A stretch of 64,000 nucleotides of DNA. Source: Micromonospora cathayae. Its GTDB lineage: Bacteria; Actinomycetota; Actinomycetes; Mycobacteriales; Micromonosporaceae. A program made the position numbers and the translations under genes. The notes beneath the pieces were generated by a model, which searched no databases, was not told the origin of the DNA, and was given only the letters and a program-made list of their open reading frames with translations. The stretch's first letter is position 1, and every line of letters begins with the position of its first letter. The DNA lies in the NCBI RefSeq assembly GCF_028993575.1, contig NZ_CP118615.1, positions 1,488,001 to 1,552,000 on the forward strand, written 5' to 3'. Below, piece after piece: positions 16,577-33,059 of the stretch.

Positions 16577-19042
<2,466 letters not shown>

Positions 19043-27438: not shown

Positions 27439-28704
27439 ATGCGCGAGCATGGGCCGGTGCTCGATCACCTCGACGACATCGACTGGGCGCGGCTCGGCCA
27501 CGCCTACGGCTCCGCCGCCGACGTACCCGACCAGCTCCGCGCGTTGCGTTCCCCGGACGAGAAGGTCCGCAAGGACGCCCTCGGCGCGCTCTACGCCAAC
27601 ATCTTCCACCAGGGCACCCGGTACGAGGCGTCCGCGTACGCGGTGCCGTTCCTGCTGGAGCTGCTCGCCGACCCGGCCACCCCGGACCGGGACTGGCTGC
27701 TGCACCTGCTGACCTCGCTGGCCATCGGGTACGACGAGAGCTGGCTGCCGGACGGCGTCGCGATCGCCGAGCACCGCGACGCGGCACAGGGCGGGCGGGA
27801 ACTGCTGGCCGCCAAGCCACCCCCGTGGACAGACGACGAGGACGACAGCGACGACGAGGACGATGACAGCGACGACGGGTACGAGGACGGCGACAAGGAG
27901 TACGTCGAGTACGCGTACGTGGAGTCGCTGAGCGAGGCCGACCAGGGGCGACTGTGGGCGTACATCGCACTGGCCGGCTACGACGCGGTCCGCGCCGGCG
28001 TACCCCTCTTCCGTGACCTGCTCACCGACCCGGACCAGGGGGTGCGGGTCGGGGCCGCGTACGCGCTGGCCTGGTTCCCGGAGGAGGCCGCCGGCAGCGT
28101 GCCGGCGCTGGTCGCGGCGGCCGAATCCGGGCGGACGCCCGGCGAGACGGCGACCGCCCTGGTGGCGGCCGGTCTGCTCGGGGCGGCCCCGGACGCCGCG
28201 CTGCTCACCGACCCGCGCCCGGTGGTGCGCTGGGCCGCCGCGGTCGCCCGCGCCCGGGTGCTGGGCGACCGGACCGACGACGCGACCGTCGACGAGCTGC
28301 TGCGCTGGAGCGCCGTCGTCCCCGAACCGGCCGGGGACGACGATTCCGTGCCGTTCCTCGGCGGGGACCTGTCCGGGTACGCCGGCACGGCGCTGCGGCA
28401 CGCCGGCCCCCGGCACGCCGACCGGGCGTTCGACGCGCTGCTGGACCGGCTGCCCCGGGTCGACGGGAAGGAAGCGCTGCGGGTGACCGCCGAGGCGCTG
28501 CGGCTGGCCTTCCCGGACGGCCGGCTGCCCGCCGGTACGCCGGCGACCGCGCTGACCCCGGCCCAGCGGCGACTGGCCGACACGCTGGTCGGCGCGCCCG
28601 GGGCCTGGCTGATCGACGGCCGGCGGTTCGGGAACTTCGAGATGCTGCTGATGGAGTACGGCCTACCCCGGGACCGCGACGAGTTGGCCGGCTACCTGGG
28701 CTGA
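27439..28704 (+). CDS. HEAT-repeat-like protein with acidic insert
   Basis: 421 residues. It has repeated Ala-rich helical pairs such as YAVPFLLELLADPATPDRDWLLHLLTSLA, VPLFRDLLTDPDQGVRVGAAYALAWFPEEA and RPVVRWAAAVARARVL, which are typical of HEAT/PBS-lyase scaffolds. A highly acidic run (DDEDDSDDEDDDSDDGYEDGD) sits near residues 132-152. It is likely a protein-protein scaffold. Its 3' end overlaps the convergent PurA-paralogue gene by 42 nt, hinting at functional or regulatory linkage with that operon. Confidence 0.82.
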   Translation: MREHGPVLDHLDDIDWARLGHAYGSAADVPDQLRALRSPDEKVRKDALGALYANIFHQGTRYEASAYAVPFLLELLADPATPDRDWLLHLLTSLAIGYDESWLPDGVAIAEHRDAAQGGRELLAAKPPPWTDDEDDSDDEDDDSDDGYEDGDKEYVEYAYVESLSEADQGRLWAYIALAGYDAVRAGVPLFRDLLTDPDQGVRVGAAYALAWFPEEAAGSVPALVAAAESGRTPGETATALVAAGLLGAAPDAALLTDPRPVVRWAAAVARARVLGDRTDDATVDELLRWSAVVPEPAGDDDSVPFLGGDLSGYAGTALRHAGPRHADRAFDALLDRLPRVDGKEALRVTAEALRLAFPDGRLPAGTPATALTPAQRRLADTLVGAPGAWLIDGRRFGNFEMLLMEYGLPRDRDELAGYLG

Positions 28705-29988
28705 CCGGGCGATCTTGTCCGCGGCGGTGGGGCCGTGCGAGGTGAGTGTCACCGGCACGTCCAGGGCCGCTTCCACCGCCGCCACCCAGTCGGTCGGCGG
28801 CCCGTCGTCGTAGACCGGGCGGGCCGCCGCCAGCCGCGCGGTGAGCGCCGCCTGCCGGTCCAGGTCGCCGGGCGGGCCGGGGTCCAGCCGGTCCAGGGTG
28901 TCGTAGCGGCGGCAGATCCGCAGCGGAGCCGGCCCGCCGTCGGTCGGGCACCCGGTCCCCGGGGCGCGCTGTGCCGGACTATCAGGCCGTCCGGTCAGGT
29001 CGAGGTGGGTGAGCGCGAGGCCGTCCACCCCGCCGGCCACCGCCAGGGCGTACCGGTGGGCGACCGCGTCGAAGTGCCCGAACCGGAACCGGCCCTGCCA
29101 GGGGTTCGTCGGGTTGCGCGGATCGGTGAACGGCAACGCCGGATCCTCGGTGACCAGCGGTCCCGGCCCGTGCCGGGTGGTGGTGGTCCGCAGTACGCCC
29201 AGCCGCTGCGCCGACCCGGCCAGCCCCGCCTCGGTCAGCAGGGTCTCCGCGTTGGCGAAGGTGGTGGTGCTCCACGTGGTGTACGGGTGGAAACCGTGCC
29301 ACTCGTCCAGCAGCACCCCCTGCGCGCCCTCGAACACGCACGTGCCGGCGCGCAGCACCCCGGCCAGGTACGTCCCGTCGACGATCCGTACCCGGTCGGC
29401 GAACCCGGTGAACGCGGGCAGGCAGTCGGCGACCGGCGGGGCGTCCAGCGGGCCGAGTTCGGCGGTCAACCGGTCCCGCAGCAGGGTGAGCCGGCGGCGC
29501 AGCCGCTCCGGGTGCCGGCAGTCGGCCACCCGGGGGGCCTCGTCGGGGTGGGCGAGCCCGTACGCGACGGACTCGCCCACCCCCAGCCCGCAGGAGCCGT
29601 GCCGGTCGGCTCCCCGGGCCATCTCCCGGGCCCGGTTGGCGGCCCGGTGGTAGGGCGTGGCGAGCAACGCGTCCCCGTCCACGGTGAGCCGGTCGAGGGC
29701 GTCCGGCACCCCGACCGAGGTGAGGTGGTCGGCCTCGGCGGCCAGCGCCAACGGGTCCACCACCACGTACCGGGACAGGTGGGTCCGGACGCCGGGACGG
29801 AACGTACCCGCCCCGAACTGGGCGAAGGTGTGCTGCCGGCCGTCCGGCAGGACGACGTTGTGCGCGGCCTGCGCGCCACCGTTGAACCGGACCACGGTGT
29901 GCACCGGCCGGGTCGCGCAGAGCCAGTCCACCACGGTGCCCTTGCCGGCGTCCCCGTAGCCGAGATCGACCACCACCACGTGGTTCAC
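28663..29988 (-). CDS. Diverged adenylosuccinate synthetase paralogue
   Basis: 441 residues, GTG overlapping the vWA stop by 4 nt. The fold markers of PurA are kept: VDLGYGDAGKGTVVDW with Asp13, and QAAHNVV with His43, the two catalytic residues. But GDEGKGK has become GDAGKGT. The aspartate-loop TTTGRERR of true PurA is replaced by NPWQGRFRFG, keeping the Gly-Arg-x-Arg pattern but losing the Thr residues. Sequence around TTTTRHGPGPLV is also distinct. Housekeeping PurA is at 17709, so this copy probably makes a different purine or amino-acid adduct as the last gene of a four-gene operon. Confidence 0.82.
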   Translation of the reverse strand: MNHVVVVDLGYGDAGKGTVVDWLCATRPVHTVVRFNGGAQAAHNVVLPDGRQHTFAQFGAGTFRPGVRTHLSRYVVVDPLALAAEADHLTSVGVPDALDRLTVDGDALLATPYHRAANRAREMARGADRHGSCGLGVGESVAYGLAHPDEAPRVADCRHPERLRRRLTLLRDRLTAELGPLDAPPVADCLPAFTGFADRVRIVDGTYLAGVLRAGTCVFEGAQGVLLDEWHGFHPYTTWSTTTFANAETLLTEAGLAGSAQRLGVLRTTTTRHGPGPLVTEDPALPFTDPRNPTNPWQGRFRFGHFDAVAHRYALAVAGGVDGLALTHLDLTGRPDSPAQRAPGTGCPTDGGPAPLRICRRYDTLDRLDPGPPGDLDRQAALTARLAAARPVYDDGPPTDWVAAVEAALDVPVTLTSHGPTAADKIARSAQVAGQLVAVPG

Positions 29989-30947
29989 AGCCGGGTGACC
30001 CCGCTGCCGCGGCCGGTGCTGGTGAACGGCAGCGTGGACACCTGGGCGCCGCGCCCGCCGTCCAGCCGGGCCAGCGCCTTCGACACCGTCGCGGTGGCCG
30101 CCGAGCCGGTCCGTTCCAGGTCCCGCAGGCCCTGCTCCAGGTCGATGGCCTGCTCGCCGAGGCCGACGGTGAGCGCGATGGTCTCGCAGACCGCGTCCAG
30201 GTCGTCCAGCTCGACGGCGTGCTGGCCGAGCAGACCGCGCCAGAAGTCGAGCACCTTGCGGTTGCCCGAGTAGTGGCTGCCGGCCGGGAGCAGGTAGTAC
30301 GTGTCCCAGCGGGCGGTCAGCTCGTCGACGAGCTGCCGGATCGGCACGTCCTCGGCCAGCCGGTCGCCGATCCGGTCGCGGACCTCGCGGGCCTTCACCA
30401 CCGGGTACGCCAGCTCGTCGCCGATGATGAACAGGTAGCCGCGCCGGCCCCGCTTCCGCCACGAGTCGGTGACCGTGTGCCGGGCCATGAAGTACATGGC
30501 CAGCTCGTACGACTCCATCATCTGGCCGCCCCCGCCGCCCTCCAGCACGATCCGGCCCAGGTCGTCGTCCATCCGGTTGTCCGACTCGAACTGGCCTACC
30601 TGCAACGGCACCCGGTCGCAGGTGGCGTCGCCGATCGCGCCGAACATGATCTGCGGGTCGCTGGCGTACCCCTGGCGCTGGAGCAGGCCGAGCAGCTGCG
30701 GCAGCTTGGCCTGGAGGGTGCGCGGCACGGTGCCCATCGAACCGGTCACGTCGAACAGCACCGCGATCGGGGTGGACTGCGGGTGCTCGGCCGAGTCCCG
30801 GCTCTCCCGGGTCGCGCCCTTCGGGTCGAGCGCGGTGTGCACCGTGCGCGCCCCGCTGTCGCTGTACGAGAACGCGCTCTTGCCGGTGGCCTTGCGGTAG
30901 CGCTTGGCGGCATCGTAGACGTCGGTGGACCAGACTCCGCTGCCCAT
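29985..30947 (-). CDS. von Willebrand factor A-domain protein
   Basis: 320 residues. The MIDAS motif DVTGSMG starts at Asp66, and the core continues through IMFGAIGDATCD and GYLFIIGDELAYPV. The N-terminal YSDSGARTVHTALDPKG segment recurs in bacterial vWA proteins of this type. The gene starts with a perfect TAAGGAGG that overlaps the upstream stop, 10 nt apart, and ends in a GTGA overlap with the PurA paralogue. vWA modules usually assemble metal-dependent protein complexes, here probably with the pseudokinase and nucleotide enzyme. Confidence 0.88.
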   Translation of the reverse strand: MGSGVWSTDVYDAAKRYRKATGKSAFSYSDSGARTVHTALDPKGATRESRDSAEHPQSTPIAVLFDVTGSMGTVPRTLQAKLPQLLGLLQRQGYASDPQIMFGAIGDATCDRVPLQVGQFESDNRMDDDLGRIVLEGGGGGQMMESYELAMYFMARHTVTDSWRKRGRRGYLFIIGDELAYPVVKAREVRDRIGDRLAEDVPIRQLVDELTARWDTYYLLPAGSHYSGNRKVLDFWRGLLGQHAVELDDLDAVCETIALTVGLGEQAIDLEQGLRDLERTGSAATATVSKALARLDGGRGAQVSTLPFTSTGRGSGVTRL

Positions 30948-30957
30948 GGCAGCCTCC

Positions 30958-31953
30958 TTAGGGGTTGAGCGTGAAGGGTCGGAAGGTGCGTGGCCCGTAC
31001 AGCCGTTCCAGCACCTCGTCGAGTTCGCCGAGCAACTGCCAGGCGTCGTCCGGCCGGCCGCGCAGGGACCGCTGCCGGCAGCCGTCGGCGAAGGAGCGCA
31101 GCTCGCGCGGGGCGTGCCGGCCCATCAGCCAGGTCATGCAGCCGGTCGCCAGCCAGATGTCGCTGCCCGGCCCGCAGGGCTGCTTCCGGCGGATCTCCTC
31201 CGGGTACCAGTCCTGGTGGCCGGGGACCAGGGCCGGTACGGCGGTGCCGGGCGCGGTGGAGAAGCACCAGTCGACCAGGACCACGCCGTGTCCGTCCGGC
31301 TCGATCAGCACGTGCGGCGGCAGCACCGCGCCGTGCACCACGCCGGCCCGGTGGGCCAGGCCGAGGGCGACCAGTAGCCGCCGCCACATCCAGGCCACGT
31401 CCCGGGCGTCCAGTCCGTCCGGGTACGCCCGGCGCACGTCGGTCAGGCTGTGCAGCCCCGGTACGGCGGCCAGCACGTTGATCCGTCGTTCCGCCCCGGT
31501 GTCGGCGTCCCGGTGCCGGAACGAGTCGACCAGCCGGGGCACGTACGGCAGGTAGCGCGGGTCGCCCTGCTCCTCGATGGTGCGCAGGGCGTGTGCCTCG
31601 CGGGCCATCAGGTCGTTGTCGGCCGGGTCACGGGGCACCTTGAGCAGCCGGCCGGCGTCGGCGTCGTACAGGTCGGCCAGGTCCCCGGCGTACGCGAGCC
31701 CGCCGAGCCGGTACGCCCCGAGGACGACCTGATCGGTGGCGGGCCGGCCCCCCCGGCCGGCCCGCCACCAGCTGGTGACCTGGACGAAGGCATCGGTGGC
31801 GGCGGCGCGTACCCGGTCGTCGGCGGTGCCCAACCGGTCCGGGTGCAGCGCCGCGACCAGTTCGCGGTAGCGGCGGGCCGGCGCGTCGGTGCCGAACAGG
31901 TCGGTGCCGGTGCGGGCCGCCGTGACCAGGCTGATCGCCTCGTCGGTCCTCAT
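30958..31953 (-). CDS. J-domain fused to a degenerate protein-kinase domain
   Basis: 331 residues. The N-terminus carries a DnaJ-like helix pair with the HPD tripeptide (YRELVAALHPDRLG, His37-Asp39). A kinase-like domain follows: Lys in GRLLKVPRD, a helix-C-like Glu in EAHALRTI, and VVHGAVLPPHVLIEPDG where active kinases have HRDxKPxN. Here the catalytic Asp is Ala, Lys is Leu and Asn is His, while the DFG Asp is kept (VDWCFS). This argues for a pseudokinase or very unusual kinase that may recruit Hsp70. ATG overlaps the NrtR-like stop (ATGA). Confidence 0.82.
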   Translation of the reverse strand: MRTDEAISLVTAARTGTDLFGTDAPARRYRELVAALHPDRLGTADDRVRAAATDAFVQVTSWWRAGRGGRPATDQVVLGAYRLGGLAYAGDLADLYDADAGRLLKVPRDPADNDLMAREAHALRTIEEQGDPRYLPYVPRLVDSFRHRDADTGAERRINVLAAVPGLHSLTDVRRAYPDGLDARDVAWMWRRLLVALGLAHRAGVVHGAVLPPHVLIEPDGHGVVLVDWCFSTAPGTAVPALVPGHQDWYPEEIRRKQPCGPGSDIWLATGCMTWLMGRHAPRELRSFADGCRQRSLRGRPDDAWQLLGELDEVLERLYGPRTFRPFTLNP

Positions 31954-32702
31954 CGGATGGTCTCCTCCCGGTCGGGGCGCAGCAGCGCGGGGTGGAGCAG
32001 CCGGGCGTCGCCGGCCCGGTAGAGCTTGGCGCGCGGGCCGCCGCGCGCCCCGCCGCGTTCGGTGCTGGTGCCGGTGCCCTCCACGAAGCCCGGCACGCTG
32101 AGCACCTTGCGGTGGAAGTTGCCGGCGTGCAGCGGCTGCCCCCAGACGGTCTCGTAGACGCCGCGCAGCTCGCTGACGGTGAACTCGGGGGCGAGGAAGC
32201 GGGTCGCCAGCGGGGTGTACTCCAGCTTGGACCGGGCCCGCTCCAGCCCGTCGTCGATGACCCGGGCGTGGTCGAAGGCGAGCTGCCGGCCGCTCAGCGC
32301 GGTCACCGGCAGCCAGCCCGCCTCGGCGGCGTCGGTGGCGGCGACCGGGTCGGGCAGGTCGGGCGCGAACGCGAGGTGCGCGATGGAGACGACCCGCATC
32401 CGGGGGTCCCGGTCCGGGTCGCCGTAGCTGCCGAGCTGCTCCAGGTGGATCCGGCGCATCCGGTCGTCGCCGAGGCCGGTCTCCTCGGCCAGCTCCCGGC
32501 GGGCGCCGGTGGCGAGGTCCTCGGTGGGCCGGACGAACCCACCGGGCAGTGCCCAGTGTCCCTGGTACGGCGGCTGGCCGCGCCGGATCAGCAGCAGGTG
32601 CAGCGCGCCCTCGCGGATGGTCAGCGCGACCACGTCCACGGTGACGGCGACCGCCGGGTAGGCGGTGGGGTCGTACCCGGCGAGGAACTCCTGCTCGTTC
32701 AC
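31950..32702 (-). CDS. NrtR-like Nudix/winged-helix regulator
   Basis: 250 residues from GTG 32702. The N-terminal Nudix domain has an intact Nudix box GGFVRPTEDLATGARRELAE followed by ETGL. The C-terminal winged helix contains YTPLATRFLAPEFTVSELRGVYETVWG and AGNFHRKVL, the hallmark of NrtR-type regulators of NAD metabolism. Those bind ADP-ribose-like ligands; the intact box means hydrolysis is also possible. It heads the operon and should control it in response to an NAD-derived or related nucleotide. Confidence 0.87.
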   Translation of the reverse strand: MNEQEFLAGYDPTAYPAVAVTVDVVALTIREGALHLLLIRRGQPPYQGHWALPGGFVRPTEDLATGARRELAEETGLGDDRMRRIHLEQLGSYGDPDRDPRMRVVSIAHLAFAPDLPDPVAATDAAEAGWLPVTALSGRQLAFDHARVIDDGLERARSKLEYTPLATRFLAPEFTVSELRGVYETVWGQPLHAGNFHRKVLSVPGFVEGTGTSTERGGARGGPRAKLYRAGDARLLHPALLRPDREETIR

Positions 32703-32717
32703 GGCTTCGTCTCTCTC

Positions 32718-32749
32718 ACGTTGAGAATTACTCGATCTGAGAACAACGT
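32718..32749 (-). promoter_or_regulatory. Candidate operator/promoter of the NrtR-like operon
   Basis: ACGTTG (32718-32723) and CAACGT (32744-32749) form a dyad with a 20-bp gap. Inside it, TGAGAA occurs twice as a direct repeat 16 bp apart (32722-32727, 32738-32743). It lies 16 nt upstream of the start of the NrtR-like gene, a natural autoregulatory position. Confidence 0.5.
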
Positions 32750-33059
32750 AGCGCACGATCGGGTGACTGTCGAGCCCCGCGTCCGGGCCGATCCCGCCGG
32801 CCGCGGCGGCGGCCCCTCGGCCGCGACGGGTGGTCGGCCCGGTAGGTCCTCGGCCGGGGGGAGCGGGTGAAGATTCACTCGACGGTCGAGAGAACGGTAA
32901 AAACATCGACGTTTGTAACATCGGAAAGGTTTGGCGTGATCATGTTGATGAACTGCGTAAACACTTAGATCGCGCAAGTGAGACCGAAGGTCGAAGTCGG
33001 GTCACATGCCGACATTGATAGACGATCATTGAAATGACGGACGGTTGATGCAATGCTGA

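Follow-up and report, generated by a model that had tools for sequence, protein, structure and literature searches.

A phage-shared gene module joins a PurA-like enzyme to vWA and J-domain pseudokinase proteins

Introduction

Why would a bacterium with an ordinary adenylosuccinate synthase (PurA) also carry a PurA-like paralogue in one operon with a Nudix-type regulator, a J domain fused to a kinase fold and a von Willebrand factor A (vWA) protein? The question is raised by four genes on the minus strand, at 28663–32702, of a 64,000-nucleotide (nt) stretch of the Micromonospora cathayae genome (NZ_CP118615.1, positions 1,488,001–1,552,000), here called the window. The four are present head to tail, with the overlaps that an initial annotation, made without database searches, had described; it took them for a regulated system that makes or senses a modified purine nucleotide, possibly for stress or phage defence.

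The finding proves larger than a four-gene operon: the three genes downstream of the regulator form a module that is common in phages and also present in bacteria, and actinobacteria add a Nudix-type regulator to it. Its parts are known folds, and their combination matches no system found in our literature searches. Beyond the initial annotation, we describe the three-gene phage core, an operator, an invariant glycine in the vWA protein and changes in the pocket of the PurA-like enzyme. We favour, at a probability of about 0.43, a ligase module, probably phage-born, that would make a purine–amine adduct other than adenylosuccinate, assembled by adaptors that would recruit Hsp70 and, in bacteria, held by a Nudix repressor.

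Results and Discussion

Linkage in actinobacteria, phages and plasmids

The co-occurrence check that the initial annotation had proposed reveals a conserved linkage of the four families in other genomes. Among the best 80 of 231 actinobacterial stretches encoding a PurA-like relative (with one genome scanned for each species), 75 loci carry all four genes on one strand and in a fixed order, over a span of about 3.6–4.5 kb. Three of the remaining five end at a contig edge, and two (L034 and L047, both Micromonospora loci) keep the regulator, vWA and PurA-like genes and give no kinase-like match. The vWA gene was found in 105 of the 151 sampled genomes of Micromonospora; one genome of the genus holds two copies (G527:C1:188270–189184 and 337604–338518). 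At the level of the phylum, phrog_2971 was found in at least 4 of 396 genomes and profile A5 in at least 3 of 396, both counts being lower bounds from samples that were drawn at different completeness limits and may differ in genomes, and the A5 search scoring few candidates per genome. The vWA family is large, with at least 8000 protein clusters matching its profile at E ≤ 1e-10; the protein searches used for scale gave the best 120 matches each, which are close relatives.

Each of the four proteins has a phage family of its own in PHROGs. By tblastn against 50,697 phage records, in which some phages are represented by two records, the vWA gene was found in 207 (189 from mycobacteriophages) and the kinase-like gene in 191 (190 from mycobacteriophages). 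Bixzunavirus phage Sebata carries the three core genes in an identical order, annotated as kinase, hypothetical and PurA-like; it differs from the M. cathayae operon in an extra small gene between the vWA and PurA-like genes and in having no Nudix gene in the stretch read. One Vibrio phage and one Rhizobium phage carry the pair of vWA and PurA-like genes. In some Bixzunavirus-type records (H204–H216 and H221–H224) the vWA match is split in two over about 1.6–1.7 kb, perhaps by an intron or intein; an HNH endonuclease is annotated in H211.

Viral contigs from IMG/VR give the same picture in three sets, which come from one collection, share contigs and comprise contigs that were not checked individually. 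When loci were found by vWA (the best 80 of 343 stretches encoding a vWA relative), 62 held all three core genes, 14 vWA and PurA-like genes, and 4 kinase-like and vWA genes, all within the fetched stretch; the order kinase–vWA–PurA held in 58 of the 62 complete loci. When they were found by the PurA-like gene, vWA accompanied it in 76 of 80; three of the other four start at a contig end, and the fourth (L226) lies about 1 kb from one, with a partial kinase-like frame. The kinase-like gene was accompanied by vWA in 29 of 29 loci and by the PurA-like gene in 25. Clustering of 1578 predicted genes from 83 viral loci placed the core families in 73, 70 and 58 loci; next came minus-strand frames antisense to the module (12 loci) and a downstream gene (11 loci), with the rest in at most 8. 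That gene, of about 256 amino acids, follows the PurA-like gene (L155:4488–5306, also L185).

A Pfam and PHROG scan of 125 flank proteins of the viral loci (124 of 323 listed, plus L130:4390–5022 added by hand) gave scattered matches, among the 25 commonest families, to NadA, NAMPT, NADAR, NUDIX and the Thoeris inhibitor Tad3, with one or two proteins each, too few to make a case for a role in nicotinamide adenine dinucleotide (NAD) metabolism. Phage contigs L136, L140 and L141 carry NrtR-type genes with a winged helix close to the module, and L217 has a related frame. L136 and L140 come from contigs of more than 400 kb, the former also encoding NAMPT and a second Nudix protein, the latter a cytidylyltransferase-like protein.

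Eight plasmid loci extend the range to Rhodococcus, Tsukamurella, Agrobacterium, Rhizobium, Acetobacter, Variovorax, Methylorubrum and Rhodovulum. All eight carry vWA, and seven each carry the PurA-like gene (Rhodovulum being the exception) and the kinase-like gene (Methylorubrum). A Nudix-type gene adjoins the module in six, divergent or downstream; of the two such proteins tested, that of Agrobacterium has an NrtR winged helix and that of Rhodococcus a Nudix domain only. On Agrobacterium vitis plasmid pAvCG78a (L103), an AAA ATPase/DUF5682/DUF4132/VWA cluster stands directly beside the module; it is absent at four other annotated plasmid loci.

The PurA-like enzyme

Is the paralogue simply another adenylosuccinate synthase? 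It shares the fold of PurA (EC 6.3.4.4), scoring 191 bits against PF00709 and 248 bits against phrog_1211, and is 38% identical to the ordinary PurA of the M. cathayae genome over the shared part. Against the PurA equivalog model NF002223, however, it reaches 151.6 bits (cut-off 402), and against the PurZ model NF038379, 33 bits (cut-off 300).

In PurA, Asn38 and Thr129 (and also Val273) are ligands of the phosphate and ribose of inosine monophosphate (IMP), and Thr300 and Thr301 belong to the aspartate loop. We counted residues in an alignment of 220 rows to Escherichia coli PurA, in literature numbering, taking as the family the 218 rows with His at the Val273 column (118 viral and 100 bacterial, with many near-copies); the two excluded rows are ordinary PurA proteins of other genomes. 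Every one of the 218 rows has the catalytic residues Asp13, Lys16, His41 and Gln224; the GTP residue Asp333 is kept in 217 and Thr239 in 214. Gln replaces Asn38 in 216 rows, only 7 retain Thr129, the 143 column is Arg in 5, and neither Thr300 nor Thr301 is kept in any. An 84-row set (73 phage and 11 bacterial), unselected at position 273, has the same pattern, with His at that column in 84 of 84; the aspartate loop sits one column apart between the two alignments. Judged by these columns, the IMP phosphate/ribose pocket is rebuilt in the family, and the aspartate loop partly so. Because the catalytic residues are kept and the pocket residues replaced, the enzyme is likely still a GTP-driven ligase acting on a 6-oxopurine, on a carrier that has probably changed; the amine may have changed as well.

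A maximum-likelihood tree of rows that we chose (73 phage, 11 bacterial, 4 PurA and 2 PurZ) splits the 84 PurA-like rows from the PurA and PurZ rows with 100/100 support. On this tree the label "bacterial" needs four changes, at least two of them forced by well-supported branches. By residues and by tree position, the second enzyme differs from ordinary adenylosuccinate synthase, its likeness to PurA being the fold, Asp333 and the four catalytic residues, its differences the IMP ligands, part of the aspartate loop, a clade of its own and the linkage to vWA and pseudokinase genes.

A redundant second PurA, giving extra purine capacity for phage replication or stress beside two unrelated neighbours, is quite unlikely. 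It would account for the kept fold, catalytic residues and Asp333, and for the column of Arg303, a residue placed next to the IMP 2'-OH, where it interacts with aspartate (PMC8342488). This column is Arg in 72 of the 218 rows (9 of 118 viral, 63 of 100 bacterial), among them the M. cathayae protein as read in its loop WQGRFRF, and 217 rows keep an Arg further along the loop; because of these two arginines, the amine may still be aspartate. Redundancy is at odds with the replacement of Asn38, Thr129 and Thr301 almost throughout, the His at the Val273 column, the scarcity of Arg at column 143, the score far below the PurA cut-off, and the tight linkage to vWA and pseudokinase genes in a genome whose true purA lies about 10 kb away.

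Database names suggest a different alternative, namely a PurZ-type enzyme that would provide phage DNA with 2-aminoadenine (dZ) or some other base: phrog_1211 and the Bixzunavirus records in RefSeq call the enzyme 2-aminooxy adenylosuccinate synthetase, as for PurZ, and PurZ (the phage 2-aminoadenylosuccinate synthase) is likewise a phage paralogue of PurA (PMC12884076). In phage PurZ, however, position 13 is Ser (PMC12884076), whereas all 218 rows here have Asp. The low NF038379 score, the separate clade and the spread of the module within Micromonospora also tell against this alternative. So does the Arg143 column, which we take to be the PurA equivalent of the PurZ arginine that contacts phosphate across the dimer: it is Arg in both PurZ rows, so that PurZ and the PurA-like family are the reverse of each other at both positions. 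The contact itself, an Arg of the partner subunit pairing with the phosphate, is described in PMC8342488. We regard a PurZ-type function as highly improbable, and the naming of the phage enzymes as a probable error, because they keep the Asp13 that PurZ has lost and fall outside the two-row PurZ clade.

The J-domain pseudokinase and the vWA protein

The kinase-like protein combines features of a chaperone partner and of a kinase fold. Among 55 rows, the HPD motif of the J domain is present in 49, the beta3 Lys in 51, the alphaC Glu in 53 and the DFG Asp in 47, and Asp stands at the HRD position in none; the J domain on a kinase fold without HRD Asp that the initial annotation had proposed therefore stands. 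No match to Pfam DnaJ was obtained at E ≤ 1. A predicted model (mean predicted local distance difference test score, pLDDT, 94.2) places the helices of the N-terminal domain within residues 3–69, and its best Foldseek match is 4wb7_A, a DnaJ–PKA chimera (E 3.1e-11).

The vWA protein has an intact metal-ion-dependent adhesion site (MIDAS), with DxTGS and a second Asp in the vWA fold, again as first annotated. Its N-terminus is constant: 298 of 304 frames align from the first four model positions, and the second residue is Gly in all 217 distinct sequences, 215 of which have a start codon at position 1 (an earlier in-frame start codon is absent from 167 and present in 50). Removal of Met would expose an N-terminal glycine. 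A requirement for docking, or for folding or structure, may equally explain this residue. One far-reaching alternative is that the ligase would attach a purine nucleotide, through its C6, to the N-terminal glycine of vWA, or of proteins that vWA presents; the hint comes from the invariant Gly2, the changed Thr300–Thr301 and the fact that the vWA and PurA-like genes are almost never apart. To our knowledge, nucleotide–protein conjugation through purine C6 to a protein amine occurs in no described system. Arg303, kept in many bacterial members, lowers the odds of a glycine acceptor further, and we consider it a very remote prospect.

MoxR–vWA pairs and TerY-type vWA/kinase sets offer a comparison, as they too place a MIDAS vWA protein, with a presumed chaperone role, beside a kinase fold. 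The M. cathayae operon differs in having neither an AAA+ partner nor a phosphatase; in their place are a J domain and a kinase fold that has no HRD Asp.

The Nudix regulator and its operator

The regulator scores above cut-off against Pfam NUDIX (71.9 bits) and NrtR_WHD (42.3 bits) and has an intact Nudix box; against the NtrR equivalog NF050029 it reaches 130.9 bits, below the cut-off of 400. Its nearest solved sequences are AraR (5bs6) and a MutT/nudix protein (3gz5). A second NrtR-type winged-helix protein is encoded elsewhere in the genome (G000:C1:2418304–2418474).

Upstream of the regulator gene lies a conserved repeat. At least one CTCA-n(3–5)-GAG site occurs in 77 of 78 actinobacterial upstream regions, against a mean of 4.4 for shuffled sequences, and at least two occur in 61 of 78, against a shuffled mean of 0.14; these regions come mostly from one genus and are not independent. 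Neighbouring sites are spaced 16 bp apart in 67 of 70 pairs, and TAAGTT, TAGGTT or TATGTT stands at the position of the putative −10 hexamer in at least 57 of the 77 loci with a site, counted over the 15 commonest forms. No second place in the 7.2-Mb genome fits the 30-base double pattern when as many as three mismatches are allowed (single sites lay outside the search). NrtR and AraR repressors share with this protein the Nudix and winged-helix domains and a palindromic operator upstream of their own gene; the regulator here differs in a double operator found once in the genome, its 16-bp tandem array and its score below the NF050029 cut-off. The Nudix-type regulator of the initial annotation is thereby substantiated, as far as domains and an operator before its own gene can tell, and we take the protein to be a putative autorepressor of the operon. 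NrtR relatives sense ADP-ribose, according to section 3.8 of PMC9503650.

Defence and stress

Could the module instead belong to the conflict between phage and host? Defence enzymes can raise inosine nucleotides: Cad1 reportedly converts ATP to inosine triphosphate (ITP), and RADAR also raises inosine nucleotides. The PurA-like enzyme could counter them by re-aminating ITP, deoxy-ITP (dITP), inosine diphosphate (IDP)-ribose or similar products, sparing the phage, or limiting self-damage in bacteria, with the Nudix regulator sensing related nucleotides. Such a counter-measure would suit an enzyme with retained 6-oxopurine chemistry, a changed phosphate/ribose pocket and a presence in many phages. 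It gives no role to vWA and the pseudokinase, however, and no defence family recurs around the bacterial copies; we judge it possible, if on balance unlikely.

The latter point comes from 79 of 84 listed flank proteins at 19 bacterial loci, chosen by length, distance and GC content by codon position, so that genes may be missing. PADLOC matched 19 models to these proteins, one protein each, none recurring (read without a baseline), and the commonest Pfam families were amino-acid permeases and others of metabolism. Neither the PurA-like nor the vWA protein is matched by any PADLOC model at E ≤ 1, and matches of the kinase-like and Nudix proteins are weak and to general models (best 6.6e-07 and 4.5e-05).

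That the operon serves the host against phages, as an ADP-ribose-type system under Nudix control, is very unlikely, and so is a Ter-linked stress module. Systems centred on ADP-ribosylglycohydrolase (ARG) do combine a Nudix–helix-turn-helix regulator and a vWA protein in one operon (PMC9503650, section 3.8), but the operon here has a PurA-like enzyme and neither ARG nor a phosphatase, and the genome's two ARG (PF03747) matches both lie more than 1.3 Mb away. TerD has no match in the genome at E ≤ 0.001 (other Ter genes lay outside the search), and the Ter-linked stress module was rejected. With the core genes common in phages, no recurring defence family in the flanks and no specific PADLOC match, the initial annotation's suggestion of host phage defence is not supported; its four-gene operon, distinct PurA paralogue and Nudix-type regulator are.

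A proposed mechanism

In the mechanism that we favour, the ligase module described at the outset, the three downstream genes would act as one functional unit shared with large DNA phages, probably phage-born and acquired more than once by bacteria. The enzyme would use GTP to phosphorylate the 6-oxo group of a purine, which an amine would displace; the purine is probably carried by something other than plain IMP, and free aspartate may not be the amine. From this we infer a modified purine nucleotide as the product, which may benefit phage or cell. The vWA protein would bind the enzyme, or the enzyme's target, through its MIDAS. On the same complex the J-domain pseudokinase would dock, possibly binding ATP as a switch, and would recruit host DnaK as an ATPase motor, the part that a MoxR AAA+ partner plays for other vWA proteins. 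The Nudix–winged-helix repressor of bacteria, bound to its own operator, would keep the unit off until an accumulating ADP-ribose-type nucleotide induces it.

Several observations weigh against parts of this mechanism. The arginines of the aspartate loop speak against a changed amine. Phage origin draws on one tree, its rows chosen by us, in which 25 of 83 inner branches have support below 80 and the deep forks are partly open. As for the shared unit, the Nudix gene is absent from most phage loci, and 14 of the 80 viral loci have no detectable kinase-like gene. HPD is missing in 6 of the 55 kinase-like rows, and by alignment the protein of the Variovorax plasmid (L106) has no J motif and a cysteine-containing, zinc-ribbon-like N-terminus; because the kinase-like gene, HPD or the J motif is absent in some members, the DnaK step would not be universal.

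Features of the window

The features are collected in Table 1. Of the other loci scanned, several of which are short stretches, only L001, L027, L031, L042 and L084 gave a relative of the convergent HEAT-repeat gene. A purA and a PurA-like gene within about 20 kb of each other also occur in several relatives of the same genus.

Table 1. Genes, junctions and regulatory sequences at the locus, in window coordinates.
Feature	Position	Strand	Remarks
NrtR-like regulator	31950..32702	−	Nudix domain and NrtR winged helix; GTG start
N-terminal J domain fused to kinase fold that lacks HRD Asp	30958..31953	−	
vWA protein with MIDAS (D66-x-T-G-S, D107, D177)	29985..30947	−	Met-Gly N-terminus
PurA-like enzyme	28663..29988	−	Clade apart from PurA and PurZ; GTG start
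Operator array TTCTCA-n4-GAG / TTCTCA-n3-TGAGA	32714..32743	−	Two palindromic repeats 16 bp apart
Putative −10 hexamer TACGTT	32745..32750	−	Abuts operator; predicted from sequence
ATGA stop/start overlap, regulator to kinase-like	31950..31953	−	−4 nt in 65/75 loci
10-nt gap, kinase-like to vWA	30948..30957	−	AGGAGG at stop; 9 or 10 nt in 51/75 loci
GTGA overlap, vWA to PurA-like	29985..29988	−	−4 nt in 34/75 loci, with script-picked starts
HEAT-repeat gene (HEAT_2)	27439–28704	+	Convergent with operon; 3' ends of HEAT-repeat and PurA-like genes overlap by 42 nt
Ordinary purA	about 17718–18998	+	About 10 kb from the PurA-like paralogue

Conclusion

The initial annotation knew of no characterised system with this four-gene composition, and neither do we: our literature search, with supplements and most subscription papers outside its scope, found no description of the four-gene composition or of the three-gene module. 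The unit is present in about 190 mycobacteriophage records (some phages counted twice), as well as in further phages and many actinobacteria, and its genes have been annotated separately, with no link between them, as kinase, hypothetical and PurA- or PurZ-like. Phages that carry it can be propagated on a standard laboratory host. In it, a natural fusion of J domain and pseudokinase stands beside an adenylosuccinate-synthetase-type enzyme of a separate clade. Knowing what that enzyme makes would reveal either a new nucleotide, a means of countering immunity based on purines, or a protein modification that is itself new.

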